From NCBI GenBank assembly GCA_030625775.1, contig DAOUQC010000009.1, positions 17,751 through 81,750 of the forward strand: 64,000 bases of DNA, in the 5' to 3' direction. Positions 2,921 to 20,451 of the stretch are shown here, one piece after another. Both the position numbers and the translations under genes were made by a program. Source of the DNA: Verrucomicrobiota bacterium. GTDB taxonomy: Bacteria > Verrucomicrobiota > Verrucomicrobiia > Verrucomicrobiales > DEV007. Each line of letters opens with the position of its first letter. The stretch's first letter is position 1. A model generated the notes under the pieces. That model was not told where the DNA came from. It was given only the letters and a program-made list of their open reading frames with translations, and made no database searches.

Positions 2921-3367
2921 CTACGAATCAGCGTGCAGCTTTTTGATAACCCCAACTGGTAGTTTTCCCACCGTATCCTGAAGATTGGTACTATCTGCCC
3001 ACTCGCGAAAATCGTCTGCGACCCCCACCAGAGAATCATGGAGTGGACAGGGATGTTCGCTATTACATGCCCCCCAACCAAAAGCGCAGCGATTTAGATC
3101 GGGATAGGCATCAACCGCTTTGAGGATATCAGAAAAAGGAATTTCCGAAGGATTGCGGGCAAGGGCAAATCCTCCGCCCAGGCCTTTCCGGGAGACCAAC
3201 AGGTCAGCGAGAACCAGGCGGCGCAAAACTTTTGATAAATAATGACTGGGAACTCCGCTACCTCTCGAGAGATCTTTAGCGCAAACCGAAGCATCGGGCG
3301 ACTCATTCACCAGCCAAACCATGGCTCGAAGGGCGTATTCCGAAGTCTGGGACAAAAATGGATGCAT
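2921..3367 (-). CDS. Rrf2-family iron-sulfur regulator (NsrR-like)
   Basis: This 148-residue protein has the Rrf2 N-terminal start (LSQTSEYALRAMVWLVNE), a winged helix with the recognition segment SHYLSKVLRRL, and the G-rich wing KGLGGGFALAR. Three cysteines, C94-x6-C101-x5-C107, match the cluster-binding triad of NsrR, IscR and RirA. Family members use an Fe-S cluster to sense NO, iron or redox state. The gene is divergent from the NO-reductase operon and shares a 152-base intergenic region containing an 18-base palindrome, so NO sensing and local control are the best inference. NsrR identity is not proven; IscR-type sensing remains possible. Confidence 0.85.
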   Translation of the reverse strand: MHPFLSQTSEYALRAMVWLVNESPDASVCAKDLSRGSGVPSHYLSKVLRRLVLADLLVSRKGLGGGFALARNPSEIPFSDILKAVDAYPDLNRCAFGWGACNSEHPCPLHDSLVGVADDFREWADSTNLQDTVGKLPVGVIKKLHADS

Positions 3368-3519: not shown

Positions 3520-4983
3520 ATGTCCACTAATTTAACAGAGGTAAATCTTGAGCCATCCACTGAAGTGATCACTTCATCGATGGACTCGGGAGCACTTGCA
3601 AAGGTGGTGCCACAAAGTGCCCGGCACTGGATTGGTCTTTCTCTAGGGGTATTGGTTCTCGCCGGGCTATTTGCCTTGGCAGTAGTGATTGGCCGTATGC
3701 CTCCATTTGATCGTTTTGTCACAGATCCACTTTTTTTCAAACGCTGCCTGGTGGGGCATGTGAATATGTCACTGGTGGTATGGTTCTACTCTTTTTTTGT
3801 AGGATTGCTATTTCTGATGCCGAGCGGGCAAAATGCCGGATGGTTGCGCCGACAAGCCGCAACCGTAGCGCTTGTGGGCGTCCTTATGATGTTGGTGGGC
3901 GCAATCATTCCAGGCACCCAACCGATTCTTTCAAATTATGTGCCCACTATTGATCACTGGCTCTTCCGATCCGGGCAGATTGTTTTTGGTATCGGCATTC
4001 TCCTCGGCCTGTTGGACATACGCCTCTTCCAAGCACCCCGTCCGGGCAATACAATGGCATTCAGCATGCCGGCCGCTACACAGGAAGGTCTACATATAGC
4101 CGTGATTGCTTTTGGGCTTGCCGCGATGACTTTGGGGATATCCTTTTTCAATCGCCCTATCGGTGTAGGGGTCGACGTGTTTTATGAGCTGGTGATATGG
4201 GGAACCGGTCACCTCTTGCAATTGGTGTCCACTATCGCCATGATCTCGGTCTGGATCATTTTACTCACCCGGGTCATCGGTAGATCTCCAGTAAGTGGAA
4301 GAGGAGCTCGCATTCTTTTCTGGGCCATGCTTTTGCCATGGGTTTACGCCCCCTTTCTTGCCATGCAGGGAACAACCACCAGCACCTACCGGGGCGGCTT
4401 CACCCACCTGATGCAATGGTGCATTTTCCCTGTAACGACAATTTTTCTCATCCTCTGTATCAAGAGTGTGGTGCACGCCTGGCGAGAGGGAATCATAAAT
4501 CGCAAAATTCTGGCTGATCCCTGTTTTACCGGGTTTGCAGTGAGTGCGGGCCTTACTTTACTTGGTTTTGGACTCGGGGCAGCCATCCGTGGCTCCAATA
4601 CTATGGTTCCCGCCCACTACCACGCTTCAGTTGGTGCGATCACCGTGGCTTTCATGGCCGTAACGGGGCCGATCCTGAAAGCCTTCGATTTTTCCCTGGG
4701 CACAAAAAAATTGCGCCGTGCTTTTGCATGGCAGCCTGCACTTTATGGAATCGGAATGCTCCTGTTTGCAGCAGGATTCGGATTTGCAGGTAGCCACGGG
4801 ATGGGGCGGAAAGTTTATGGGGCGGAACAGGCCGAGCGGGGATTTGCCGAAACGGTTGGACTTGGAATTATGGGGGTGGGTGGTCTGATCGCCATCGCGG
4901 GAGGTTTGCTTTTCCTATGGATTGCGGGTGCCGCCTGGTGGCGGGGATCCACAAAAAAAACACAAATACAACGACGACCTTAG
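3520..4983 (+). CDS. Heme-copper oxidase subunit I paralogue, CuB site incomplete
   Basis: This 487-residue protein has about twelve membrane helices and resembles the eNOR-like subunit encoded at 5720. Both share HxH motifs, AGS(H/Y)G segments and a GIMGVGG helix. Candidate heme ligands are H80 (CLVGHVNMS), H366 and H368 (PAHYHAS). A helix VI His is present (H231 in WGTGHLLQ), but where the catalytic subunit has its HH pair I see only APFLAM. CuB is therefore probably incomplete and this is more likely a structural or electron-transfer subunit than a second catalytic centre. It is the first gene of the operon. The ATG at 3520 has no strong ribosome-binding site. Confidence 0.75.
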   Translation: MSTNLTEVNLEPSTEVITSSMDSGALAKVVPQSARHWIGLSLGVLVLAGLFALAVVIGRMPPFDRFVTDPLFFKRCLVGHVNMSLVVWFYSFFVGLLFLMPSGQNAGWLRRQAATVALVGVLMMLVGAIIPGTQPILSNYVPTIDHWLFRSGQIVFGIGILLGLLDIRLFQAPRPGNTMAFSMPAATQEGLHIAVIAFGLAAMTLGISFFNRPIGVGVDVFYELVIWGTGHLLQLVSTIAMISVWIILLTRVIGRSPVSGRGARILFWAMLLPWVYAPFLAMQGTTTSTYRGGFTHLMQWCIFPVTTIFLILCIKSVVHAWREGIINRKILADPCFTGFAVSAGLTLLGFGLGAAIRGSNTMVPAHYHASVGAITVAFMAVTGPILKAFDFSLGTKKLRRAFAWQPALYGIGMLLFAAGFGFAGSHGMGRKVYGAEQAERGFAETVGLGIMGVGGLIAIAGGLLFLWIAGAAWWRGSTKKTQIQRRP

Positions 4984-5006
4984 TGTCGGTGAATCAAGCT
5001 AATACT

Positions 5007-5162
5007 ATGATCCCAGAAAAACCTGATAAAAAACATTGGCTTCAAAAGCTCATGGACAACCCGTGGATCCTATTGGTTCTGGGTGTCGTGGTTCCAACCC
5101 TTTCATACACTGTATGGGGATGGATTGAACTTCTAATGATAACAGAAGCAAAACTCCCTTAA
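5007..5162 (+). CDS. Small single-helix membrane protein of the NOR operon
   Basis: The ORF track begins this frame at 4917 inside the preceding gene, but the ATG at 5007 gives a 51-residue peptide. It has a charged N-terminus (MIPEKPDKKHW), one hydrophobic helix (ILLVLGVVVPTLSYTVWGWIELL) and a short tail. It lies 23 bases after the HCO paralogue and 17 bases before the CuA subunit. Its size and position recall the tiny accessory subunits (CcoQ/CtaF type) of oxidase complexes. No sequence family was recognised. Confidence 0.6.
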   Translation: MIPEKPDKKHWLQKLMDNPWILLVLGVVVPTLSYTVWGWIELLMITEAKLP

Positions 5163-5179
5163 TTCTACAAAAAAAGACA

Positions 5180-5707
5180 ATGAGTATCTCTCCACCACCT
5201 GATGATTGGTTCAAAGCACCCCACGGCAATGAAAAGCTCTGGCTGGGGCTGGCGATCGCCTGGTGTATTGTGATGTCGATTGCGATGCCTTACTGGCACT
5301 TCGTAGGAAAACAAAACAGTACCGGCGAATCCTACAAAGTTACACCTAAAGACTTCATCGCCCGGGTTCAGGAATTCGTGAAAACGAATCAAGTCGGCAC
5401 GATGAACAACTTTCCTGTAGTAGAGGGAACCCCTGGGGGTGACATCTACATGCAAGGCCAAATGTGGCTCTGGTATCCAGTTCTCAAACTGAAAAAAAAC
5501 CAGACCTACCGCCTACACCTTTCGTCGATTGATCTGCAGCACGGGCTGTCTATCCAACCGCTGAACATGAACTTTCATGTATTGCCCGGATATGACCACG
5601 TGCTGACTATCACTCCGACGAGTTCAGGAGAATTCCCTCTTATATGTAATGAGTTTTGCGGAATCGGCCACCATACGATGGCCGGCCGGATTATTGTTGA
5701 AGATTAA
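5180..5707 (+). CDS. CuA-containing subunit II of the HCO/NO reductase
   Basis: This 175-residue subunit has one N-terminal membrane helix (LWLGLAIAWCIVMSIAMPYW) and a cupredoxin domain. The CuA loop CNEFCGIGHHTM contains C-x3-C-x3-H-x2-M, and an upstream His in DLQHGLSI supplies the remaining ligand, so the binuclear CuA site looks complete. CuA takes electrons from a soluble or lipoprotein cytochrome c and passes them to subunit I. Only one transmembrane helix is present, rather than the two of mitochondrial-type subunit II. It is encoded 12 bases before the catalytic subunit. Confidence 0.88.
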   Translation: MSISPPPDDWFKAPHGNEKLWLGLAIAWCIVMSIAMPYWHFVGKQNSTGESYKVTPKDFIARVQEFVKTNQVGTMNNFPVVEGTPGGDIYMQGQMWLWYPVLKLKKNQTYRLHLSSIDLQHGLSIQPLNMNFHVLPGYDHVLTITPTSSGEFPLICNEFCGIGHHTMAGRIIVED

Positions 5708-5719
5708 CAAAAGATTTCG

Positions 5720-7459
5720 ATGTCAGAAAATAACACAAGTGAAACGTCAGATTCAGGATCCAGCGGAAATTACCTGAATAACAATATGCGGACCTGCGAT
5801 ACCACGGGTTTACCCGTGTGCATGGTTGCCCAGAAATTCATCAAGCTGCATGCTGTGCTAGCAGTTGTATTTCTGCTGGTAGGTGCCTGCGCGGCACTCC
5901 TGCTAGCCCTTACCCGGTGGCCGGCAGTTCATCTACTCAATCAGGTTTGGTACTACCGTGTGCTTACGCTGCATGGTCTCAACATGCTGATTTTCTGGAT
6001 CCTGTTTTTTGAGATAGCTGTTCTCTATTTTGTGGGAACAAGCTTGCTGAACACACGATTAGCATCGGCTAAAACAGCTTGGGCGGGCTTCCTCCTCATG
6101 TTCGTAGGGGCGATTCTCACCAATGTAGCCATCATGCAAGGGAGAAGTGATGTACTCATGACCTCCTATGTACCACTGAAGGCATCCCCGATGTTCTACT
6201 TTGGAATCATTCTGGTGGCAGTCGGCACATTGATAGGTGTGATCAATTTTTTCTGCACGATTTACATCGCCAAAAGGGATAAAACCTATAAAGGATCTGT
6301 TCCGCTAGTCGTGTTCGGTGGAATCGCCGCAGCGATCATTGCTGTAGTGACTCTTCTGCACGGTGCTGCAGTCATGATACCCACTTGGATGTGGGCCATG
6401 GGGTGGATCGATAATATTGATCCAGCCTGGTACCGGATTGTCTGGTGGGGCCTGGGACACAACTCACAGCAGGTCAATGTCTGCGCCATGGTGGCCGTCT
6501 GGTATTTCCTCGCAACCGTCACCGTAGGAGCCAAACCTCTCAACCAGGCCGTATGCCGGGGAGCCTTTGTTCTTTACATCCTGTTCATCAACCTCGCAGC
6601 GGCCCACCATCTTCTGGTGGATCCAGGTGTAGGTGCCGGTTGGAAAATTTGGAATACCTCATACGCCATGTATCTGGCAGTATTGGCTTCCATGATCCAC
6701 GGATTCACAGTGCCCGCCTCGGTCGAGGTAGGCCTTCGTGCCCATGGTTACAATCGGGGACTCTTTGGTTGGCTGGTCGCCGCTCCCTGGAAAAATCCAG
6801 GCTTTTCGGGCTTCTTCCTTTCGCTGGTGATCTTTGGATTTGGAGGAGGAATTACCGGTGTGGTACTGGGAATCCAACAAATCAATATCATGGCCCACAA
6901 TACCCTGCGTATTCCCGGTCACTTCCATGTCACCGTGGTGGGCGGAACGACCCTAGCTTTCATGGCGCTGACTTACTACGTGGTGCCCCTGGTGTTCCAG
7001 AAAGAATTTTATCTCAAGAGCCTGTGCCGTATCCAACCCTATGTTTTTGGTGGCGGCATTGTCATGATGGCGATGGGAATGTCATTTGCAGGATCCTACG
7101 GGGTACCTCGCCGCCATTGGGACATCGATCTGACCGGTGCCCCTTTCACCTCCAACTTTGATTCCGGTGCTCATACGATGCTGGGAATCATGGGAGTCGG
7201 CGGAGTAATCGCTTTCATAGGAGCACTGATGTTTATTCTCCTGGTCGTCTCAGCGGTATTTTTTGGTAAATCAAATGCTGGAAAAGCAATGAGCGAATGG
7301 AATGAGCCTCTGGGTGTTGCCGGAGCTGACGCGGTCGCAGATGATGGCAAAAGCAATACCCGGGGAACCTTTGTATTGGCCTTGATCTTCCTCGCTTGTT
7401 TTGCAATCTACTACTTTGCCAACTGGAAATGGCTGGCGGATGTGTGGGAAGTCAGATGA
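5720..7459 (+). CDS. Heme-copper NO reductase catalytic subunit (eNOR-like)
   Basis: This 579-residue multi-helix protein carries the full HCO ligand set: H85 (helix II), H247 (helix VI, WWGLGHNSQQVN), H296-H297 (helix VII, AAAHHLLV) and H401/H403 (helix X, GHFHVT). At the +4 position from H247, where oxygen reductases have the cross-linked Tyr, this protein has Gln251; the HPE Glu is also gone. Gln in place of that Tyr is the signature I recall for the eNOR family of NO reductases derived from A-type oxidases. The neighbouring Rrf2 regulator and nirS locus support NO as substrate. An unusual oxygen reductase cannot be excluded. Confidence 0.8.
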   Translation: MSENNTSETSDSGSSGNYLNNNMRTCDTTGLPVCMVAQKFIKLHAVLAVVFLLVGACAALLLALTRWPAVHLLNQVWYYRVLTLHGLNMLIFWILFFEIAVLYFVGTSLLNTRLASAKTAWAGFLLMFVGAILTNVAIMQGRSDVLMTSYVPLKASPMFYFGIILVAVGTLIGVINFFCTIYIAKRDKTYKGSVPLVVFGGIAAAIIAVVTLLHGAAVMIPTWMWAMGWIDNIDPAWYRIVWWGLGHNSQQVNVCAMVAVWYFLATVTVGAKPLNQAVCRGAFVLYILFINLAAAHHLLVDPGVGAGWKIWNTSYAMYLAVLASMIHGFTVPASVEVGLRAHGYNRGLFGWLVAAPWKNPGFSGFFLSLVIFGFGGGITGVVLGIQQINIMAHNTLRIPGHFHVTVVGGTTLAFMALTYYVVPLVFQKEFYLKSLCRIQPYVFGGGIVMMAMGMSFAGSYGVPRRHWDIDLTGAPFTSNFDSGAHTMLGIMGVGGVIAFIGALMFILLVVSAVFFGKSNAGKAMSEWNEPLGVAGADAVADDGKSNTRGTFVLALIFLACFAIYYFANWKWLADVWEVR

Positions 7460-7499
7460 CTTCCCCACTCTCTGCCTTCTGCCTGCTTGAAAACTTACC

Positions 7500-8456
7500 A
7501 TGTCTGAAAGTCCTTCTATACGATTAATAGAGCATTTACGGCGTTTTTTTGAAAACGGAGGATTTGCCGCATTTGCCTTATGTTTACTGCTGGGATTCGA
7601 CACCCTCTTACTGGGGTTGTTATTGACTCCGGGTGGAGACCACGGCATCGGAGCATTTGCGGATGAATTGCGGGTATGGTGTTTCGGACTTGATTCGGCA
7701 ACCGGAAAATTAGAATGGAGTTATGTTTTTTCCATGCTATTCCCCCCCCTCTTACTGTCCGGAGCGCTCCTTCTTTTCTGGGGCAAACCCGTGCGCCAGA
7801 TTTTTTCCCAACCGCGCTCCCTGGCCCTGCACCTTCTTCCCGCTCTGATCCTGGTTGCTGGTTGTGGTGCATCCTTTGCATTTTTGGCAAATCCATCCCA
7901 GGGCGACAAGCTGGAATTTCCTGCAGAGGAAATCAGGACGCACCTGCCTACACCAAATCTCAATCTAATCAATCAAGCTGGCGAAAAAGTCGATCTGGCT
8001 GACATGCGTGGCAAAGTAGTCGTGCTCACCGGGATTTACACTTGCTGCGTGCAAACCTGCCCATTAATTATCTTGCAGGCAAAATCAGCCATCGCGGATT
8101 TGCCGCCGGAGCTTCTCAAAGATCTGCGCTTCGTAGCAGTGACCATGGACCCCATTCGTGACACCCCTGAAAAGCTGAAGGAATTTGCGGAAATGCAAGG
8201 AATAGCCCCACCTCTCTATCAACTGGTTACGGGGGAGGTTGAGAAAGTTGAAGCCACTCTGGACGCTATGGGCATTGCTCGGGAACTGGATAAAGAAACC
8301 GGCATTATCAGCCATGTTAATCAATTCCTTCTGGTAGACAAAGACGGCAAAGTTGCCTATCGCCTGGGCTTGGGAGAGCGGCAAAAAAAATGGCTCAGCT
8401 CGGCAATGCAGGTTTTGCTCGAAGAAAATGGTGATGAAGAAAGGCTTGTCCACTGA
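7500..8456 (+). CDS. SCO1/SenC-type copper chaperone with membrane domain
   Basis: The 318-residue protein has three N-terminal membrane helices followed by a thioredoxin-fold SCO domain. The copper motif is CCVQTCP (CxxxCP), and the distal His is in GIISHVNQFLLVDKDGK. SCO proteins insert copper into the CuA site of subunit II, which fits the CuA gene two positions upstream. The usual SCO has one membrane helix, so the extra helices are noteworthy. Its TGA overlaps the ATG of the next gene (TGATG), indicating translational coupling. Confidence 0.85.
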   Translation: MSESPSIRLIEHLRRFFENGGFAAFALCLLLGFDTLLLGLLLTPGGDHGIGAFADELRVWCFGLDSATGKLEWSYVFSMLFPPLLLSGALLLFWGKPVRQIFSQPRSLALHLLPALILVAGCGASFAFLANPSQGDKLEFPAEEIRTHLPTPNLNLINQAGEKVDLADMRGKVVVLTGIYTCCVQTCPLIILQAKSAIADLPPELLKDLRFVAVTMDPIRDTPEKLKEFAEMQGIAPPLYQLVTGEVEKVEATLDAMGIARELDKETGIISHVNQFLLVDKDGKVAYRLGLGERQKKWLSSAMQVLLEENGDEERLVH

Positions 8457-10627
8457 TGTCCGGTACAACGCCCAGTGAAGACAAGCAGACTAGTTCAGAG
8501 AGTCAAGTGGGGGAAATCGAGTTAACCGTTCCGGATCTGACAGACCTCCTGCCCACTGCCTTTGACAACAACAACACCTCGACCGTCGATCCCCCGGTTC
8601 GTGGAGAAATAATCCTGCGATCTCTGGAAAAGTTGTTTCTACGCTTTGACCGCCTGATAGCCCTAGGGCTTCCAAAGGAATACAACCCCTTTCTACAAAC
8701 CGGCACCATCGCCATGGTTTCCCTGTTGATTGCTACGGCAACCGGCGTTCTGCTGCTGCTCTGGTATTCTCCCAGCGTAGTTCAGGCATTCGCCAGCGTA
8801 TCTGCGATGGATGCAGCACCGTGGACCAGCGGACTGGTTCGTTCACTTCACCGCTACAGTTCCGACATGTGCCTGTTTTTCACTCTGGCGCATGCCATCC
8901 GGCTGTTTTCCCAGCGGCTGTTCACCGGAGCCCGGTGGCTGGCATGGGTCTCAGGCATATCCATGATGGGAATCATCTGGTTTATAGGGTGGACAGGATA
9001 TTGGTTGGTATGGGATGAACGGGCGCAACATCTGGCCGTCGGCTCGGCAAAAGCTCTCGATATCTTACCAATATTCGCAGACCCCATGGGCCGGACCTTT
9101 CTGGTAAATGAAACCGTGAATTCATTGTTGTTCTTCGTCATCTTTTTCACCCACATAATGATTCCCCTGGTTTTCGGGATTGCCTCCTGGCTTCATCTTG
9201 CCCGGATTTCACGACCAAAATTTCTCACTGACAAGTGGATGTCTTACTGGGTAGTGGGCACCCTGCTGGCTATCAGCATTTTCTATCCCGCCACGACTGC
9301 TGAGCCGGCGAATATGACGGCCATCAACCAGAGTTTCACCATGGATGCATGGTATCTCTTTCCGATCACCCTGATGGACCGGTTGAGCGGAGGCGCTCTA
9401 TGGGGAGTCATACTGATAAGCGGCTCCCTGGCATTTTCGATTCCCTGGTTACTGGGAAGAGGACGCCCCCGCAGTGCCCTCGTGATCACTTCACGCTGTG
9501 ATGCCTGTGGCAACTGTTATAACGATTGTCCCTACAATGCCATCACCATGGTGTCGCGTAAGGGCAGCCTAAACGAACGCTACCCAACCGTTGCGCACGT
9601 AGACTCCAATCTGTGTGTTGGTTGCGGGATTTGTGGAGGATCCTGTGATACTGTCGGTAACGGATTGCCTTGGTTCGATACCACTGAAAAACGCAAAATC
9701 ATGCGTTCCTGGATAAAAGAAATGCAGGAAGCAGGAGAAAAACCCTTCATCGCTTTGGTTTGTGAAAACTCAGCTGGAATGGATTTGAAAGTCGATTTGC
9801 AATCCGGTGTGTGTGAAGAATTACCCGGCTATCGGGTTTTAAAAATTCCCTGTGCCGGGTGGATTCACCCACTGACAATCGAAGGCTTGGAGAGAAAAGG
9901 TGCGGAGGGTGTGCTGGTGGTGACCTGCGGCCCTGGTGAGTGCCGCTACAGAGAAGGAGCCAAGTGGACACAGCAGCGAGTCGATGGTGAGCGCTCTCCT
10001 GCATTACGCAACGAATATGCAGACCGCAAAAAAATCCTCATCCTCAATCTGGACAAAACAAGCCGGAAGAAAATGATTGTGCAAGGTTCGGCCTTTCAAC
10101 AGGGCGAACATGTGATAAACGATGTAAAACCTTCCAAGGCAGCGATGGGATTCACTGCAACCTTACTGACTTTGTTTATTGCCTGCTTGATTGCCGTGGG
10201 CAGTGACATCCCATACACCACTCCCGCTCAGACAGGCTCGACCCTGGTCGTCACCTTCCGGCATCCCGGTCAGGTTTCCGATGTAGTCAAAAGACTGACA
10301 AGTGAAGAACTGGAAGCTCTGCCCATGCATATGCGTCAGGAGGAGATACGGGAGAGAAAACGGATGCCCGTCCGGCTGCGCATCCGTATCGACGGACAAG
10401 TGATCCGGGAGGGAGTTTATACCCCCAAAGGTATATGGGAAGACGGACCCAGTGTCGCTGTAGAGAGCATTTCCCTTTCACCTGGCAGCCACAAGGTGGA
10501 GGTCTCTGTAGGAGACGGAAAAGATGAAAAAAAATGGCAGTTCAATAATGAAAAAGTCATCGAATTTACCAACGAAACAAGACGGGTGCTTATCTTTGAT
10601 CGAGTGAAAGGTTTTTCATGGTATTGA
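8456..10627 (+). CDS. Cytochrome b / 2[4Fe-4S] ferredoxin / MvhD fusion
   Basis: This 723-residue fusion has four parts. Residues ~70-340 form a cytochrome b domain with two H-x13-H pairs (LHRYSSDMCLFFTLAH and THIMIPLVFGIASWLH) for two b hemes. Residues ~345-400 carry two 4Fe-4S motifs (CDACGNCYNDCP and CVGCGICGGSC). Residues ~430-530 resemble the MvhD hydrogenase iron-sulfur subunit, with VTCGPGECRYREG. Then come a single membrane helix and a beta-rich tail ending at the stop. Such a protein could link a soluble or quinol donor to the CuA/cytochrome c side of the NOR. No Rieske or cytochrome c1 partner is seen. The physiological direction of electron flow is unknown. Confidence 0.82.
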   Translation: MSGTTPSEDKQTSSESQVGEIELTVPDLTDLLPTAFDNNNTSTVDPPVRGEIILRSLEKLFLRFDRLIALGLPKEYNPFLQTGTIAMVSLLIATATGVLLLLWYSPSVVQAFASVSAMDAAPWTSGLVRSLHRYSSDMCLFFTLAHAIRLFSQRLFTGARWLAWVSGISMMGIIWFIGWTGYWLVWDERAQHLAVGSAKALDILPIFADPMGRTFLVNETVNSLLFFVIFFTHIMIPLVFGIASWLHLARISRPKFLTDKWMSYWVVGTLLAISIFYPATTAEPANMTAINQSFTMDAWYLFPITLMDRLSGGALWGVILISGSLAFSIPWLLGRGRPRSALVITSRCDACGNCYNDCPYNAITMVSRKGSLNERYPTVAHVDSNLCVGCGICGGSCDTVGNGLPWFDTTEKRKIMRSWIKEMQEAGEKPFIALVCENSAGMDLKVDLQSGVCEELPGYRVLKIPCAGWIHPLTIEGLERKGAEGVLVVTCGPGECRYREGAKWTQQRVDGERSPALRNEYADRKKILILNLDKTSRKKMIVQGSAFQQGEHVINDVKPSKAAMGFTATLLTLFIACLIAVGSDIPYTTPAQTGSTLVVTFRHPGQVSDVVKRLTSEELEALPMHMRQEEIRERKRMPVRLRIRIDGQVIREGVYTPKGIWEDGPSVAVESISLSPGSHKVEVSVGDGKDEKKWQFNNEKVIEFTNETRRVLIFDRVKGFSWY

Positions 10628-12084: not shown

Positions 12085-12918
12085 ATGACGAAGCACTCTG
12101 GAAAAGTTTATCTGGTCGGTGCGGGTCCTGGCGACCCGGGTCTGGTCACTTTGCGTGCCAAGGAACTGATCGAATTGGCTGAAGTGCTGGTTTATGACAA
12201 TCTCGCCAATCAGCACCTTCTCGAATGGGCCAATTCCGATTGTGAAAAAATTTATGTTGGCAAAGAACCTGGTCGCCATGCAGTTGAACAGGATGAAATC
12301 GAAAACATACTGGTTGGGCATGCGGAAAAGGGGCGACAAGTCGTCCGCCTGAAAGGGGGGGATCCCTTTGTATTTGGGCGAGGTGGCGAAGAAGCCCGGA
12401 GACTGGAAGTCGCAGGCATACCCTTTGAAATCGTGCCGGGAATCACTGCGGCCCTGGCCGCTGCGGCCTATGCAGGCATCAGCTTGACCCACCGCGATTA
12501 CAGCTCTGCTATTAGTTTTATCACCGGACACGAAAATCCCGAGAAGAAGGAATTCCGAGTCGATTTCGAACGCTTCGCCAACAACGGCGGCACCCTTTGT
12601 ATCTACATGGGAATGGGTCAACTCCCCCGTATTGTCGGCGATTTGCTGACTGCCGGCCAGTCACCTGGCACACCAGTTGCGATTGTGCAATGGGCTACTC
12701 TCAGCAAACAACGCTCGGTTTTTGGTAAACTCGAAACGATAAATGATATCGTCACTGAGGCAGGTGTATCCTCCCCGGCCATGATCATCGTCGGAGATAT
12801 CGTTGCGCTGCACAAACAGGTTTCCTGGTTTGAAAAGCAGGACCCTCAAACCCTGGCTGAAGCTGAAAGCCGGTTTTTTGATGCTGAAAAAGGAACCGCA
12901 AAGGACCAACAGGAATGA
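12085..12918 (+). CDS. nirE: Uroporphyrinogen-III C-methyltransferase (NirE/CobA)
   Basis: The 277-residue protein is a stand-alone SUMT with the N-terminal VYLVGAGPGDPGLVTLRA loop, the VYDNLANQHLLEW segment, RLKGGDPFVFGRGGEE, and EIVPGITAALAAAAYAGI. It methylates uroporphyrinogen III twice with SAM to give precorrin-2, the precursor of siroheme and heme d1. No dehydrogenase/ferrochelatase (CysG-N) domain is attached. It is the first gene of the d1/nir operon and overlaps the next gene by ATGA, so it most likely serves heme d1 synthesis. Confidence 0.93.
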   Translation: MTKHSGKVYLVGAGPGDPGLVTLRAKELIELAEVLVYDNLANQHLLEWANSDCEKIYVGKEPGRHAVEQDEIENILVGHAEKGRQVVRLKGGDPFVFGRGGEEARRLEVAGIPFEIVPGITAALAAAAYAGISLTHRDYSSAISFITGHENPEKKEFRVDFERFANNGGTLCIYMGMGQLPRIVGDLLTAGQSPGTPVAIVQWATLSKQRSVFGKLETINDIVTEAGVSSPAMIIVGDIVALHKQVSWFEKQDPQTLAEAESRFFDAEKGTAKDQQE

Positions 12919-14609
12919 CCACTCCCGCTCACTTAATAAGGTTCACCCTCACCTGCATTTTTCCTTTGCTACTTCAATCTGTCCTTGAAGCAAAAGATGA
13001 GGCACCTCGCCCCGGACAAGCCCTTTATCTCCAGCGCTGTGCGGAATGTCACCACCCCAACCGGGTCGGTATCTCCGCCCCTCCCTTGCTGCCGGAATTT
13101 CTCCGTAAAAAATCAGATGAGGATCTCATCAAAGTGACTAGAGACGGCTTGCCCGCCACCAAAATGCTGGCCTATCCCGACCTGACGGATTCCCAGTTAA
13201 AAGATCTGGTGACGTTTATGCGTTCGGATCCGGGTGACATCCAATGGACCCATGAGGACATCAAAAAAAGCCTGCTGCTCGAAGCGCCTCCGGCAACGGC
13301 TCCCAAGGGCAGTAATGATCTAAAAAATCTAACCGCTGTTGTCGAACGAGGCACGGCAAAGGTCTGGATCATGGAGAACGAGAAGGTGCTCGACAAATTT
13401 CCCTTTGGCAATGTTCACGGAGGAATCAAATTTACCAGTGATGGAGAGCGCCTCTACGTGCCTTCACGTGATGGCTGGGTAGGTCGATATGATGTTGGCA
13501 AAGGGTATTTCGGACGAGTTCGCCCCTGCGTCAATTTGCGCAACATTGCATTATCCCATGACAACAAACACCTGATCGTAGCGAGCTGGCTCCCCCGCTC
13601 TTTGATCATTCTGGATGCAACAAGCTTGCAGGTGGTGAAGACCATTCCCATCGATGGCAAGATCAGCGCAATCTATAATCTGTATTCCCGCAATGAGATT
13701 ATTTTTACCCTGCGTGACAAAGCCCTCTTCGGCACTTTGGATACAACGGATTTTACCCTCAAGTGGACGGATCTGGAATACCCGGTAGAAGATTTTTTCA
13801 TTGGTCCTTTTGAAAAAGTCATCGTCGGCACAGCGCGACGTGGAACCGTACTGACCGCCTTTGACCTCAATACCCTGAAACCGGTCTTTTCCCATCCGGT
13901 CAAAGGATTCCCCCACCTGTTTTCATCGGCGCTGTGGTATAACAAGGGCGAGTTTTTCTTTGCCACCTGCCACATCAACAAAACTTACATCTCGGTCTGG
14001 AGAATGTATGACTGGAAAATGGTCAAACAGGTGGATATCGGAGGGAAGGGATATTTTGTCAGAACCCATCCGGCAACAGAACACCTTTGGGTTGACCGGG
14101 GGGATGACAAAGTCGCCCTGGTGAACAAAAAGGATCTCAGTCTGAAAACCATGCGCCCTGATCCAGGTGGCAGTGTCATTCATACTGAGTTCTCAGGAGA
14201 CGGACGCATTGCCTACATCAGTTTGTTTGATACGGATGGAGCCCTTTCCCTCTACGATGCGGCTACCCTACGTAAGATTGACGTACTGCCCGCCAGCTTT
14301 CCTGTTGGAAAATACAATTTTATCAACAAACAACGCCGCTTTGATCCGGTTAAGCTGGGCAGGGAAGTGTTCATGGCCCGTTGCTGGGGCTGTCACCATC
14401 CCACCAGCATGGCCTTTGGCCCGTCACTCAAATCGATTGCCAAAAAACGGAGCCGAGCCGAGATGATGGCACAGATTCTTGCCCCGGAACATACCAGCAA
14501 GCAACTCGGTTATAAGAACAACGCCATGCCTAAAATCCCTATGGGAGCCGAGGAATTAGAGGCTATTATAAGTTTCATCGAGGACACCGCTCATGCTAAG
14601 GATCAGTGA
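12915..14609 (+). CDS. nirN: NirN-like d1-propeller protein with N- and C-terminal cytochrome c domains
   Basis: The 564-residue exported protein has a signal peptide, then a cytochrome c domain with CAECH near residue 43, then an eight-bladed d1-type propeller (GGIKFTSDGERLYVPSRDGW, HLIVASWLPRSLIILD, HLWVDRGDDKVALV), then a second cytochrome c with CWGCH near residue 490 and a distal-Met region (NNAMPKIP). Known NirN, the dihydro-heme d1 dehydrogenase, has only the N-terminal heme c plus propeller. The C-terminal domain resembles a fused NirC-type cytochrome. It shares ATGA with nirE and overlaps nirJ by 17 bases. It could alternatively be a divergent NirS, but the genuine NirS is encoded downstream. 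Confidence 0.8.
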   Translation: MTTPAHLIRFTLTCIFPLLLQSVLEAKDEAPRPGQALYLQRCAECHHPNRVGISAPPLLPEFLRKKSDEDLIKVTRDGLPATKMLAYPDLTDSQLKDLVTFMRSDPGDIQWTHEDIKKSLLLEAPPATAPKGSNDLKNLTAVVERGTAKVWIMENEKVLDKFPFGNVHGGIKFTSDGERLYVPSRDGWVGRYDVGKGYFGRVRPCVNLRNIALSHDNKHLIVASWLPRSLIILDATSLQVVKTIPIDGKISAIYNLYSRNEIIFTLRDKALFGTLDTTDFTLKWTDLEYPVEDFFIGPFEKVIVGTARRGTVLTAFDLNTLKPVFSHPVKGFPHLFSSALWYNKGEFFFATCHINKTYISVWRMYDWKMVKQVDIGGKGYFVRTHPATEHLWVDRGDDKVALVNKKDLSLKTMRPDPGGSVIHTEFSGDGRIAYISLFDTDGALSLYDAATLRKIDVLPASFPVGKYNFINKQRRFDPVKLGREVFMARCWGCHHPTSMAFGPSLKSIAKKRSRAEMMAQILAPEHTSKQLGYKNNAMPKIPMGAEELEAIISFIEDTAHAKDQ

Positions 14610-15687
14610 ATACATCCGGGACACCCTGGCGGACAAACCTGTTCGTAAAACCACAGGCAAATCGATTCTGATCTGGAACCTGACTAACTTGTGCAATCTT
14701 TTTTGCGAGCATTGTTATGCATCCGCGACCCCCACCAGAGAGGGGGAGTTCAGCACCGAAGAAGCCATGGGCCTGATCCCTGAACTAAAAGAAGCCGGCA
14801 TAGGTTTTGCCATCCTTTCCGGCGGAGAACCCCTGACCTGGCCCGGCCTGTTTGAAGTTGCCACTGCTCTCAGGGAAACTGGCATTATTACTTACCTGAG
14901 CACTAACGGCTTGTTAGTCAGCGAAAAAAATGTCGAGCAGATTCGTGACCACTTTGACTATGTCGGCATCAGCATCGATGGACGCCCAGAAATCCACGAC
15001 GAATTCCGCGGAAAAAAAGGTGCCTATAAACAAAGCATGAAGGCCATCCGTCTCTGCCTTGAGCAGGACATAAAAGTCGGAATGCGCTACACCCTGACGC
15101 CGCAGACATTCGACTCACTGTCTTATATATTTGAGCTCGCCGAAACCGAAGGCATTCCAAAACTTTACATCTCCCATCTCGTCTATTCGGGTCGGGCAGA
15201 TGCCCTGAACCCTCTGGAGACAAAACAGGAACGGGAAGCTACCGAAAAAATCATTCAAAAGGCTTTCGAATATTGTGAAAACAATACCGCAATCGACATT
15301 GTCACCGGCAACAATGAAGCGGACAGCGTGCTTCTGCTTCAGGAATTCACCCGACGCCATCCTGAACGAAGTGATGCCTTGTTAGAAAGATTACGCAACT
15401 GGGGCGGCAATCAGGCGGGGGCGCGGATGCTCAACATCAATTACAAAGGAGAAGTCCGCCCTGACCCGTTTTTCCAACGAGCCCTTGGCAACGTATTGGA
15501 AACTCCATTCACCGAAATCTGGCGTTCGGACCCTTTTCTCAAAAAACTCCGGGAAACTCCACGACAACTGAAAGGAACCTGTAAAACATGCGAATACCTC
15601 GATATCTGCAACGGAAACTCACGGCCGCGAAGCCTCGCCATACACGGGGATTATTTCCAAGAAGACCCGGGTTGTTATTTTACCTAG
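14593..15687 (+). CDS. nirJ: NirJ radical SAM protein of heme d1 synthesis
   Basis: The 364-residue protein has the radical-SAM motif CNLFCEHCYASA (CxxxCxxC), the GGEPLTWPGLFE loop, and a C-terminal SPASM-like cysteine set (GTCKTCEYLDICNG). NirJ replaces the propionates on rings A and B of 12,18-didecarboxysiroheme with oxo groups. Placement between nirN-like and nirF genes makes the call strong. The start overlaps the end of the nirN-like gene by 17 bases. Confidence 0.92.
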   Translation: MLRISEYIRDTLADKPVRKTTGKSILIWNLTNLCNLFCEHCYASATPTREGEFSTEEAMGLIPELKEAGIGFAILSGGEPLTWPGLFEVATALRETGIITYLSTNGLLVSEKNVEQIRDHFDYVGISIDGRPEIHDEFRGKKGAYKQSMKAIRLCLEQDIKVGMRYTLTPQTFDSLSYIFELAETEGIPKLYISHLVYSGRADALNPLETKQEREATEKIIQKAFEYCENNTAIDIVTGNNEADSVLLLQEFTRRHPERSDALLERLRNWGGNQAGARMLNINYKGEVRPDPFFQRALGNVLETPFTEIWRSDPFLKKLRETPRQLKGTCKTCEYLDICNGNSRPRSLAIHGDYFQEDPGCYFT

Positions 15688-16733
15688 GCCTCACCATCCT
15701 GGTGACGGCTCCTGTTTGCAGCAGCGCCGAAACAATTTACGTGGTAGAGCGGGAGCGTCGTAGTCTGGCGGTGATCAAGGACGGCAAGTGGGCGGGCGAA
15801 ATCCCTGATCTCGGGGATACCAGCCACACAACAGTTAAATTTTCCGGAGGCTACGGCTTCGCCATCAGCAGGGATGGTTTTGTCTCCAAGATCGATCCCA
15901 AAACGAACAAGGTGATAAAAAAGGCCAAAGTCGGCAACAGCGGTATCGGACTCAACTTCATAAAAAATTACGTTGCGGTAGCCAATTACGATCCAGGCAC
16001 GGTAGTGATTCTGGACCTCGACTTGAATCTGGTAAAAACAATCAAAACGGGTTCCCGTAATGTCGGGATCAAAGCACTCGAAAACAAACTCATATTCGCC
16101 TTGATGGACAAAAACGAGATTTGGGTTCTCGATGCCGATCGTGATTTTTCGCCTATGAAAAAATTCACCAATGTGGGAGAATTACCCTTCGACGCCCTTT
16201 TGGCTGACCGGCGCTACATTGTTGGTTTTTTTAATGACACCCGCCTGGGAAGCGTCAACTTGGACAGCTTGGAATTCAAACCCATGGTTCTGGACCAGGG
16301 TGATCAGGAAACCGTACTCAAAATCCCACACTTCGGCCAGTGGGGGGTCGCAGGAGGATCTGTTTTCATTCCCGCCAACAAAGACAAAAAACTGCATGTC
16401 GTCTCTTTGACTGATTTCAAATACCAGGGCACTATCGACTTGATCGGAACTCCCGTCTTCGTAGCAGCATCTCCAGACGGGAAAACCCTGGCAGTCAACT
16501 ACAGCGGCGAAAAGGAAAATTTCATCACCATCGTGAACCCGGTTGAACAAAAAGTGGAGTTGGACATCCAAGCTGGAAAACGGGTCATGCACTTCCGCTT
16601 CTCCCCTTCAGGAAAAGAGCTTTACCTGTCCTCCTACTTTGACAATCAGATGAAAATTTTCAAAGTAGGATCATGGGGAAAAACGGGGCATGTGGATGTT
16701 GCCACCCCCTCGGGAATCTTTCTCGTTCCATAA
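15588..16733 (+). CDS. nirF: NirF, heme d1 biosynthesis propeller protein
   Basis: This 381-residue propeller protein matches NirF: TIYVVERERRSLAVI opens the first blade, SHTTVKF carries the conserved His, and VANYDPGTVVILD and FALMDKNEIWVLD follow. NirF is a periplasmic d1-precursor dehydrogenase or handling protein. The ATG at 15588 has AAAGGA about 11 bases upstream but overlaps nirJ by 100 bases and adds an Arg-rich leader before the hydrophobic stretch LLFYLGLTILVTAPVCSSA. A TTG at 15672 would give a compact signal peptide. APVC is a poor lipobox, so a soluble periplasmic protein is more likely than a lipoprotein. Confidence 0.88.
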   Translation: MRIPRYLQRKLTAAKPRHTRGLFPRRPGLLFYLGLTILVTAPVCSSAETIYVVERERRSLAVIKDGKWAGEIPDLGDTSHTTVKFSGGYGFAISRDGFVSKIDPKTNKVIKKAKVGNSGIGLNFIKNYVAVANYDPGTVVILDLDLNLVKTIKTGSRNVGIKALENKLIFALMDKNEIWVLDADRDFSPMKKFTNVGELPFDALLADRRYIVGFFNDTRLGSVNLDSLEFKPMVLDQGDQETVLKIPHFGQWGVAGGSVFIPANKDKKLHVVSLTDFKYQGTIDLIGTPVFVAASPDGKTLAVNYSGEKENFITIVNPVEQKVELDIQAGKRVMHFRFSPSGKELYLSSYFDNQMKIFKVGSWGKTGHVDVATPSGIFLVP

Positions 16734-16865
16734 GCTTTCCTAATCTCGAAAAGCCCTCGCAGTAGCACAGATAAAACAATCTGCTGCCAAGTTGAATACC
16801 CTCTGATAAAGAGCAAATGGCTAAGTGTGCCCAGCTTGCATCCCTCAAAGCCTGTTCCGGGTAAA

Positions 16866-16881
16866 ATGCAAAAATATGCAT
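16866..16881. promoter_or_regulatory. Inverted repeat ATGCA-N6-TGCAT upstream of nirS
   Basis: ATGCA-AAAATA-TGCAT lies about 135 bases before the chosen nirS start, in the 282-base gap after nirF. The ATGCAT half-site recalls the NsrR consensus of Gammaproteobacteria, although flanking bases do not match. No FNR/DNR-type TTGAT-N4-ATCAA site was found in this gap. It is a candidate operator only. Confidence 0.3.
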
Positions 16882-16919
16882 CCTTTTTCGCAATCCATAC
16901 GTAGTAAGTGTGGATCTAG

Positions 16920-19277
<2,358 letters not shown>

Positions 19278-19319
19278 GCTATAATAATAGCCGAAACCGG
19301 CTACATAATAAACTTAACC

Positions 19320-19352
19320 AAGCTCCCTGCTTCTCATTGAGGCAGGGAGCTT
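19320..19352 (+). terminator. Hairpin terminator after nirS
   Basis: AAGCTCCCTGC and GCAGGGAGCTT form a perfect 11-base-pair stem with an 11-base loop, 43 bases after the nirS stop. The following bases (GTCGTGTT) are only moderately T-rich, so termination may be partial, leaving some expression of the downstream nirD/L gene. Confidence 0.65.
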
Positions 19353-19443
19353 GTCGTGTTATAGGGGTAGCGATTAGGATGCCTGCACTTTACTGGGAAC
19401 CGCTGCAAGGTGACACCGCTGCTGAATTGAGATAAAACCAGAT

Positions 19444-20451
19444 ATGGATGATACAAGAGCACAATTAATCCGGGCTGTTCAAGGAGGCTTACCCTTTATT
19501 CAACGGCCGTTTGCTGCCCTGGCAGAAAAAGCAGGGCTTGGTGAAGCCGTCGTAATTTCCGGTTTGCAGGAACTCAGTGAAGAAGGTGTGCTGCGGGAAA
19601 TTTCAGCAGTACTCGAAGGCAGCGCCCTGGGATACGACAGTGCTTTAGTGGCGGGAACCGTGCCTGAATCAAAACTGGAAAAAGCCGTGGAAGCCATCAA
19701 CGCCCATCCGACTGTTACCCATAACTATCTGCGAGGGCATGAATACAATTTGTGGTTCACTGTCGCCGTGCCGCCAGAAATGAGTCTTGATCGCACTCTC
19801 GAACTTCTCGCCAAAGAATCTGGAATTGATCAATTTCATCCTCTGCGCAGAACCCACACTTTTAAAATCGGGGTCAACTTTGATCCCAAAAGCCTGAAAA
19901 ACAGCACCACTGAAATAGCGAGTGGGAAGGTCGAGTCGTTCACCGCAGATGCGACTTCAGCCAAAAAATTCAGGGCCTTGCAAACACCTCTTTCCTTTGT
20001 GAAGCAACCCTTCGAAATTCTGGCAAAACAAGCCGATTGCTCTGCTGAAGAACTTCTCGATTTTGCCAATCAACACCAGGGTGGGGCAATTCGGCGCTAC
20101 GTGGGCACCCTCCGCCATCGCAAGTTGGGCGTAAGGGAAAATGGCATGGTGGTTTGGAACCTGCCTGTAGAGAACATCGAGAAAATTGGCCAACAATTCG
20201 CCAATGCTCCGGAAGTGAGCCACTGTTATGCCCGCAATACCATCGAAGGTTTTCCCTATAATGTCTACAGCATGGTCCATGGCCCCAGCCAGGAAAGTTG
20301 CCATGAAATTGCCCGGGATCTTGCTGAACAATCCGACTGTAAAGACTACGCGGTTCTTTTCAGTGAGAAAGAATTCAAGAAACAACGCCTGCGCTATTTT
20401 CTGCCCGAACTCGATCAATGGTGGCAGCAGCGGACGATGGTATCAGGTTGA
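19444..20451 (+). CDS. nirDL: Siroheme decarboxylase, fused NirD/L type
   Basis: The 335-residue protein contains two Lrp/AsnC-like units in tandem. The first has QRPFAALAEKAGL, VTHNYLRGHEYNLWFTV and HPLRRTHTFKIGV. The second has KQPFEILAKQADCS, GGAIRRYVGTLRHRKLG and VSHCYARNTIEGFPYN. These are the hallmarks of AhbA/B and NirD/L/G/H siroheme decarboxylases, which produce 12,18-didecarboxysiroheme in heme d1 synthesis. One fused chain replaces the separate subunits found in pseudomonads. It is 166 bases after nirS, beyond a hairpin, so it may have its own promoter. Confidence 0.9.
   Translation: MDDTRAQLIRAVQGGLPFIQRPFAALAEKAGLGEAVVISGLQELSEEGVLREISAVLEGSALGYDSALVAGTVPESKLEKAVEAINAHPTVTHNYLRGHEYNLWFTVAVPPEMSLDRTLELLAKESGIDQFHPLRRTHTFKIGVNFDPKSLKNSTTEIASGKVESFTADATSAKKFRALQTPLSFVKQPFEILAKQADCSAEELLDFANQHQGGAIRRYVGTLRHRKLGVRENGMVVWNLPVENIEKIGQQFANAPEVSHCYARNTIEGFPYNVYSMVHGPSQESCHEIARDLAEQSDCKDYAVLFSEKEFKKQRLRYFLPELDQWWQQRTMVSG

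Follow-up and report, generated by a model that had tools for sequence, protein, structure and literature searches.

The window, by which we mean the whole 64,000-nucleotide stretch of DNA that was analysed, carries an operon for a heme-copper enzyme of the eNOR family and, downstream of it, a nirS locus. The operon genes follow one another in the order CuB-less paralogue, one-helix protein, CuA subunit, eNOR subunit I, SCO protein and cytochrome b fusion, preceded by a divergent Rrf2 gene:

2921 to 3367, reverse strand: divergent Rrf2-family regulator (Pfam Rrf2, 89.9 bits) with C94, C101 and C107, of the Fe-S type (NsrR/IscR-like).
3520 to 4983, forward strand: CuB-less heme-copper paralogue ("HCOX") of 487 aa, keeping H80, H231, H366 and H368 (COX1, 41.8 bits).
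5007 to 5162, forward strand: small one-helix protein of 51 aa (MIPEKPDKKHWLQKLMDNPWILLVLGVVVPTLSYTVWGWIELLMITEAKLP).
5180 to 5707, forward strand: CuA subunit II of 175 aa, with H121, C156, E158, C160, H164 and M167; its best PDB match is ba3 subunit II.
5720 to 7459, forward strand: eNOR subunit I of 579 aa, with an ATG start, 12 or more TM helices, six His ligands and Q251 in place of Tyr.
6455 to 6478, forward strand: helix VI motif GHNSQQVN (aa 246-253) of subunit I, in which H247 is a CuB ligand and Q251 stands at the Tyr position.
7500 to 8456, forward strand: SCO1/SenC protein (Pfam SCO1-SenC, 73 bits) with CVQTC (CxxxC).
8456 to 10627, forward strand: fusion of cytochrome b, 2x[4Fe-4S] and a FlpD-like domain, recognised by Pfam and motifs.

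Subunit I matches Pfam COX1 over aa 41-496 (219.8 bits), and the NCBIfam oxidase models score far under their cut-offs, the best of them being CtaD (68 bits, cut-off 671). As the earlier note had described, the six His ligands are all present (H85 in helix II, H247 in helix VI, H296 and H297 in helix VII, and H401 and H403 in helix X), Gln occupies the position +4 from the CuB His of helix VI, and a complete CuA subunit with all CuA ligands lies directly upstream. When subunit I is aligned with named relatives, Q251 stands where A- and B-family oxidases have their Tyr and where cNOR and qNOR have Glu. In cbb3-type oxidases, the cross-linked Tyr comes from another place, six positions ahead of the His pair of helix VII; eNOR subunit I has Ile290 there in place of a Tyr. 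The active-site Tyr of oxygen reductases is therefore absent from both the helix VI and the helix VII position (Q251 and I290), and a Tyr elsewhere filling the site, which had been named beforehand as grounds against the eNOR reading, is ruled out for the cbb3 route.

The homologue set comprised 84 sequences, namely 80 loci from a single scan of a collection of bacterial and archaeal genomes (62-77% identity to the window subunit I), three plasmid homologues from Defluviimonas, Thermomicrobium roseum and Thermus thermophilus (44-50% identity), and the window copy. The sequence GHx[S/A]QQ[V/I]N is read in all 84 of these bacterial homologues and is a fixed family signature; Q250, Q251 and N253 are invariant throughout, so that the Gln is not a matter of chance. 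The six His are likewise kept across the set, one Thermus plasmid protein excepted: in this T. thermophilus plasmid eNOR (L088:8983-10668), helix X reads HFK for HFH, by which the low-spin heme His has apparently become Lys, and the CuA motif of the same locus has Asp for Glu. The loci are distributed over at least 11 named phyla, chiefly Verrucomicrobiota and Myxococcota. Literature on the family reportedly includes Hemp and Gennis in 2008, Hemp et al. in 2015 and Murali et al. in 2024. Gln in place of Tyr is the diagnostic feature of eNOR (PMC8756737), and the identification made earlier from the Tyr-to-Gln change agrees with this published definition. The family is B-family-related and biochemically characterised (PMC11388526), in Ardenticatena its gene shares an operon with NirK (PMC4653789), and an eNorAB pair was reported in 2026 for an isolated species of Verrucomicrobiota (PMC13274419). 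The gene at 5720-7459 is a further member of this known, characterised family and not a new kind of enzyme.

The enzyme had at first been called A-type-derived, a view with which CtaD, as the best NCBIfam model, is in line, although its score is so far under the cut-off. A PDB sequence search with subunit I returned ba3-type oxidases at 135-145 bits (139 bits for ba3) against 29.6 bits for caa3. A fold predicted from an alignment of the window and genome loci (mean pLDDT 79.5) gave, in a fold search, 21 best matches that are all B-family structures and rank ahead of any A-family structure. A tree was built from eNOR, cNOR, qNOR and members of the A, B and C families, without the named eNOR references (Natronomonas, Ardenticatena and Rhodothermus marinus) and without bNOR (CuANOR), sNOR, gNOR and nNOR; in this tree, in which long branches meet, eNOR groups with the B-family (100/98) and forms a clade of its own (100/100), the Tyr-bearing B-family relatives form a separate group, and the Gln-bearing proteins of T. 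roseum, the T. thermophilus plasmid and Defluviimonas fall together with the window eNOR (100/100). A grouping of eNOR with the A-family was rejected (AU test, p = 0.010), so that a relation to the B-family was found and a closest relation to the A-family was not. The tree sets eNOR apart as distinct and the test rejects an A-type origin, the probability of which is practically nil; since sequence, fold, tree and literature (PMC11388526) all place the protein with the B-family, "A-type-derived" was wrong and "eNOR" right. We conclude that eNOR derives from B-family (ba3) oxidases and not from the A-family. In the same tree, the window eNOR groups with sequences of Myxococcota and Pseudomonadota (98/97), and in a second tree so does the window paralogue (100/99). 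This placement of both proteins outside the host phylum, Verrucomicrobiota, whose other eNOR genomes match loci of Opitutaceae, suggests that the operon (3520-10627) was acquired by transfer.

No difference from published eNOR was found among the catalytic-subunit features compared, and the Gln, the six His, the CuA subunit II, the B-family affinity and the link to denitrification genes are all alike. For subunits I and II, the best PDB sequence and fold match is the ba3 oxidase of T. thermophilus (7deg), which also has a small one-helix subunit nearby but differs in carrying Tyr237 where eNOR has Gln251. Tyr244, Tyr248, Ser309 and Thr312 are residues that we take to have roles in the K-channel of ba3. 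In eNOR, two of them correspond to polar residues (Tyr248 to Y262 and Ser309 to T313), whereas Tyr244 and Thr312 are replaced by Val258 and Ala316. Further polar residues of eNOR (N253, N312, S314 and Y315) are invariant or nearly so, and E18 of subunit II, in an EKxWL stretch near the N-terminus, resembles the ba3 channel entrance; a modified K-channel in eNOR is plausible on these correspondences. The same reaction is expected of cNOR and qNOR, which differ from eNOR in being C-family-related, in having Glu at the Gln position, in lacking CuA and in being distant in the tree. Among other NO reductases, bNOR (CuANOR), sNOR, gNOR and nNOR are also filed with the B-family (PMC11388526), and a cupredoxin-type second subunit is predicted for sNOR and gNOR (PMC8756737); by description, the site residues of CuANor, sNOR and gNOR are Asn/Asp, as against Gln here (PMC8756737, Table A4).

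The accessory genes were counted at loci whose contig extends far enough, so that the denominators differ per gene. The CuA subunit gene is present at all 78 loci with room for it, and of 82 homologues 81 keep the motif C.E.C...H..M, from which only the Thermus plasmid protein departs, with Asp for Glu. Upstream of the CuA gene, the DNPWLLL...SYTxWG motif of the one-helix protein is found at 72 of 79 loci, and the product of 5007-5162 is likely a small subunit resembling ba3 subunit IIa. A SCO gene (72/75 loci), whose product at 7500-8456 is a probable CuA assembly factor, and the cytochrome b/4Fe-4S fusion gene (64/67 loci) follow, and SCO and cytochrome b genes also lie downstream of eNOR on the Defluviimonas plasmid. 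Since the cytochrome b part of the fusion protein contains two bis-His pairs (H132/H146 and H233/H247), the protein could relay quinol electrons and is a likely candidate for the electron donor module; no study of such a cytochrome b/4Fe-4S/FlpD-like fusion was found in the literature searched. In a search of the window for FNR/NNR boxes, five matches with at most one mismatch were obtained against 3.2 expected, and none lies upstream of the operon.

The nirS locus reported by the earlier note is real and extends from 12085 to 20451, with NirS and the heme d1 genes arranged as follows:

12085 to 16733, forward strand: heme d1 genes, for SUMT/CobA, a cytochrome c-d1-cytochrome c protein, a NirJ-like radical SAM protein and a d1-propeller (NirF-like).
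16920 to 19277, forward strand: NirS, cytochrome cd1 nitrite reductase, of 785 aa (Cytochrom_D1, 499 bits), with CxxCH at aa 137 and 289.
19444 to 20451, forward strand: AhbA-AhbB siroheme decarboxylase fusion (NirDLGH-like) in a single ORF, with both NCBIfam models above cut-off.

The cytochrome c-d1-cytochrome c protein is encoded at 12915-14609; its d1-propeller has a cytochrome c domain on either side, with CxxCH at aa 42 and aa 490, which is an unusual arrangement of NirN/NirS-like type. In NirS, two c-heme domains precede the d1 domain; a C1-C2-NirS layout has been called unique to Chloroflexi (PMC8756737), and the likeness to that description is one of layout.

Elsewhere in the genome, which is 96.4% complete and in 158 contigs, a TAT-type NosZ was identified (913.7 bits, cut-off 625), together with a nitrate reductase candidate (L130) that scores under the NapA cut-off. 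Five COX1-like proteins are encoded: an aa3 oxidase (HPEVY), a cbb3 CcoNOP fusion, a degenerate cbb3-like protein, eNOR and the paralogue. The degenerate protein (L004, G000:C29:34768-35934, reverse strand) has no helix VI/VII His and is located in an aa3/ActF (alternative complex III) cluster. None of these COX1-like proteins is a cNOR or qNOR, although at this completeness and number of contigs a cNOR may have been missed. With NirS and NosZ present and no cNOR or qNOR visible, eNOR is, judged from gene content, the sole visible respiratory NO reductase of the organism. Of the earlier proposal that NO is reduced here by a CuA-fed, A-type-derived enzyme rather than by cNOR or qNOR, the CuA subunit, the nirS locus and the absence of a visible cNOR or qNOR have stood, and the A-type ancestry has fallen.

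Taken together, the locus very probably encodes an eNOR-type NO reductase that would take up the NO formed by the NirS encoded nearby and turn it into N2O, which NosZ would then reduce to N2. Electrons would pass from CuA in subunit II to the low-spin heme (H85/H403) and on to the heme-CuB centre (H401; H247, H296 and H297), where two NO would be joined. By analogy with the family, Gln251, in place of the cross-linked Tyr that O2 splitting requires, would tune the site to NO over O2. Protons would probably be taken up through a modified B-type K-channel, SCO would load CuA, and the cytochrome b/4Fe-4S protein would probably supply electrons.

Two other functions have to be weighed against this one. 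The protein could be a B-family oxygen reductase that tolerates Gln, lacks the Tyr cross-link and still uses O2 as its true substrate, as its full CuA subunit, its B-family fold and the name cytochrome oxidase that annotation pipelines give to its homologues would have it; this is quite improbable, given that the Gln is invariant across the phyla sampled, that no Tyr takes the cbb3 position, that the Tyr-bearing relatives form a group apart, that the organism already possesses aa3 and cbb3 oxidases, and that eNOR has been characterised as an NO reductase (PMC11388526). Alternatively, the enzyme could detoxify NO under an NO-sensing Rrf2 regulator, outside respiratory denitrification. An Rrf2 gene whose product has three clustered Cys does adjoin the operon, Rrf2 genes occur at 26 of 62 eNOR loci, and NirS is within reach at only 8 of the 43 loci with enough flank, so that many members of the family are not tied to nirS. 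We regard detoxification as unlikely, though deserving some weight, in view of the complete d1-heme/NirS cluster that follows 5-13 kb downstream, read from the same strand, the NosZ in the genome, and the CuA subunit and cytochrome b module, which point to a link with the respiratory chain. Respiratory NO reduction by eNOR remains the preferred reading.

Plasmids of T. thermophilus bear on the same function. Among the records listed, eNOR is found in 10 and cNOR in 8, with no overlap. The flanking proteins of the NO reductase are identical in both versions (WP_124105678.1 and WP_014511217.1), and each version has a nirS-type nitrite reductase gene nearby. The simplest reading is that one NO reductase was exchanged for the other, the nirS island having cNOR in some records at the place that eNOR takes in others, although the strains compared may be close kin and the swap may represent few events. 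Such an exchange would be an independent hint that the functions of eNOR and cNOR are equal.

The first gene of the operon, upstream of the CuA and subunit I genes, was not flagged in the earlier note. Its product, the paralogue, is encoded first in the eNOR operon at 60 of 69 testable loci from many phyla. A PDB sequence search with it gave no match, and its AlphaFold model (pLDDT 90.5) has 12 helices in the heme-copper subunit I fold and best matches ba3 subunit I (TM 0.70, prob 1.00). NnrS is a heme/copper protein that spans the membrane with many helices and is linked to genes under NO control. The likeness of the paralogue to NnrS is one of analogy only, since the paralogue matches COX1 rather than NnrS and folds as a heme-copper subunit I. 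In the second tree it stands on a long branch beside eNOR, and the two share a clade (100/99). In an alignment of 65 orthologues, four His never vary, namely H80 (helix II), H231 (helix VI), H366 and H368 (both in helix X), whereas the helix VII His-His pair is missing from all 65; one of the three His of a CuB site is thus left (H231). From this pattern, the protein could bind two hemes, whereas a normal CuB could not be formed.

The loss of the helix VII pair and a divergence faster than that of eNOR subunit I (mostly 28-55% against 63-76% identity to the window copy) might indicate a decaying, functionless duplicate of subunit I. This is highly improbable: the reading frame has stayed open in at least 8 named phyla, comparisons of close pairs give dN/dS values of 0.09-0.35, which indicates constraint by purifying selection, the four His are conserved and Q234, T295 and R430-K431 are invariant or nearly so, and the first place in the operon and the confident fold also speak against decay.

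The paralogue is nearly confined to eNOR genomes. Among 289 Verrucomicrobiota genomes surveyed, all five that carry it have an adjoining eNOR, and one eNOR genome is without it; in the class to which Fodinibius belongs, the two genes occur together in 9 genomes, the paralogue alone in 2 and eNOR alone in 4 (Fisher p 4e-11 for co-occurrence in that class, due in part to shared ancestry). It is not an essential eNOR subunit, being absent from four eNOR genomes and from three plasmid eNOR loci (L086-L088), nor is it strictly bound to eNOR, since in at least two genomes it is present and no eNOR was seen next to it. Stand-alone copies (L138:7875-9278, L139:7162-8559 and L140:7742-9262), which have no adjoining eNOR, retain the same His residues, and their neighbourhoods include Rrf2, CopD, a DUF2249 protein, a cytochrome P450 and a putative NDH-2. 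No description of the paralogue was found in the literature searched, the main eNOR paper (Murali et al., 2024) lying outside it.

Our best guess is that the paralogue is an accessory heme-b membrane protein of NO metabolism that usually works with eNOR. Tentatively, and with a little less than even confidence, we propose that it arose from the eNOR/B-family line, probably still binds hemes and serves as a dedicated non-catalytic partner of eNOR, as a pseudo-enzyme that might act in electron or quinol entry, in NO handling or in heme/copper assembly. In the scheme given above, its place is the weakest step: it would most likely be a heme-b membrane partner of eNOR, or else a subunit for assembly or NO handling.

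Where eNOR is annotated as a cytochrome oxidase, as it usually is, such genomes seem to make NO by NirS without removing it, and correct naming alters the N2O output inferred for the organism. As eNOR itself belongs to a known family, the main interest lies in its conserved CuB-less partner, which suggests that the usual description of eNOR by its subunits I and II may lack a component. If the proposed partnership is true, a heme-copper pseudo-enzyme would have been kept together with its catalytic sister across phyla.
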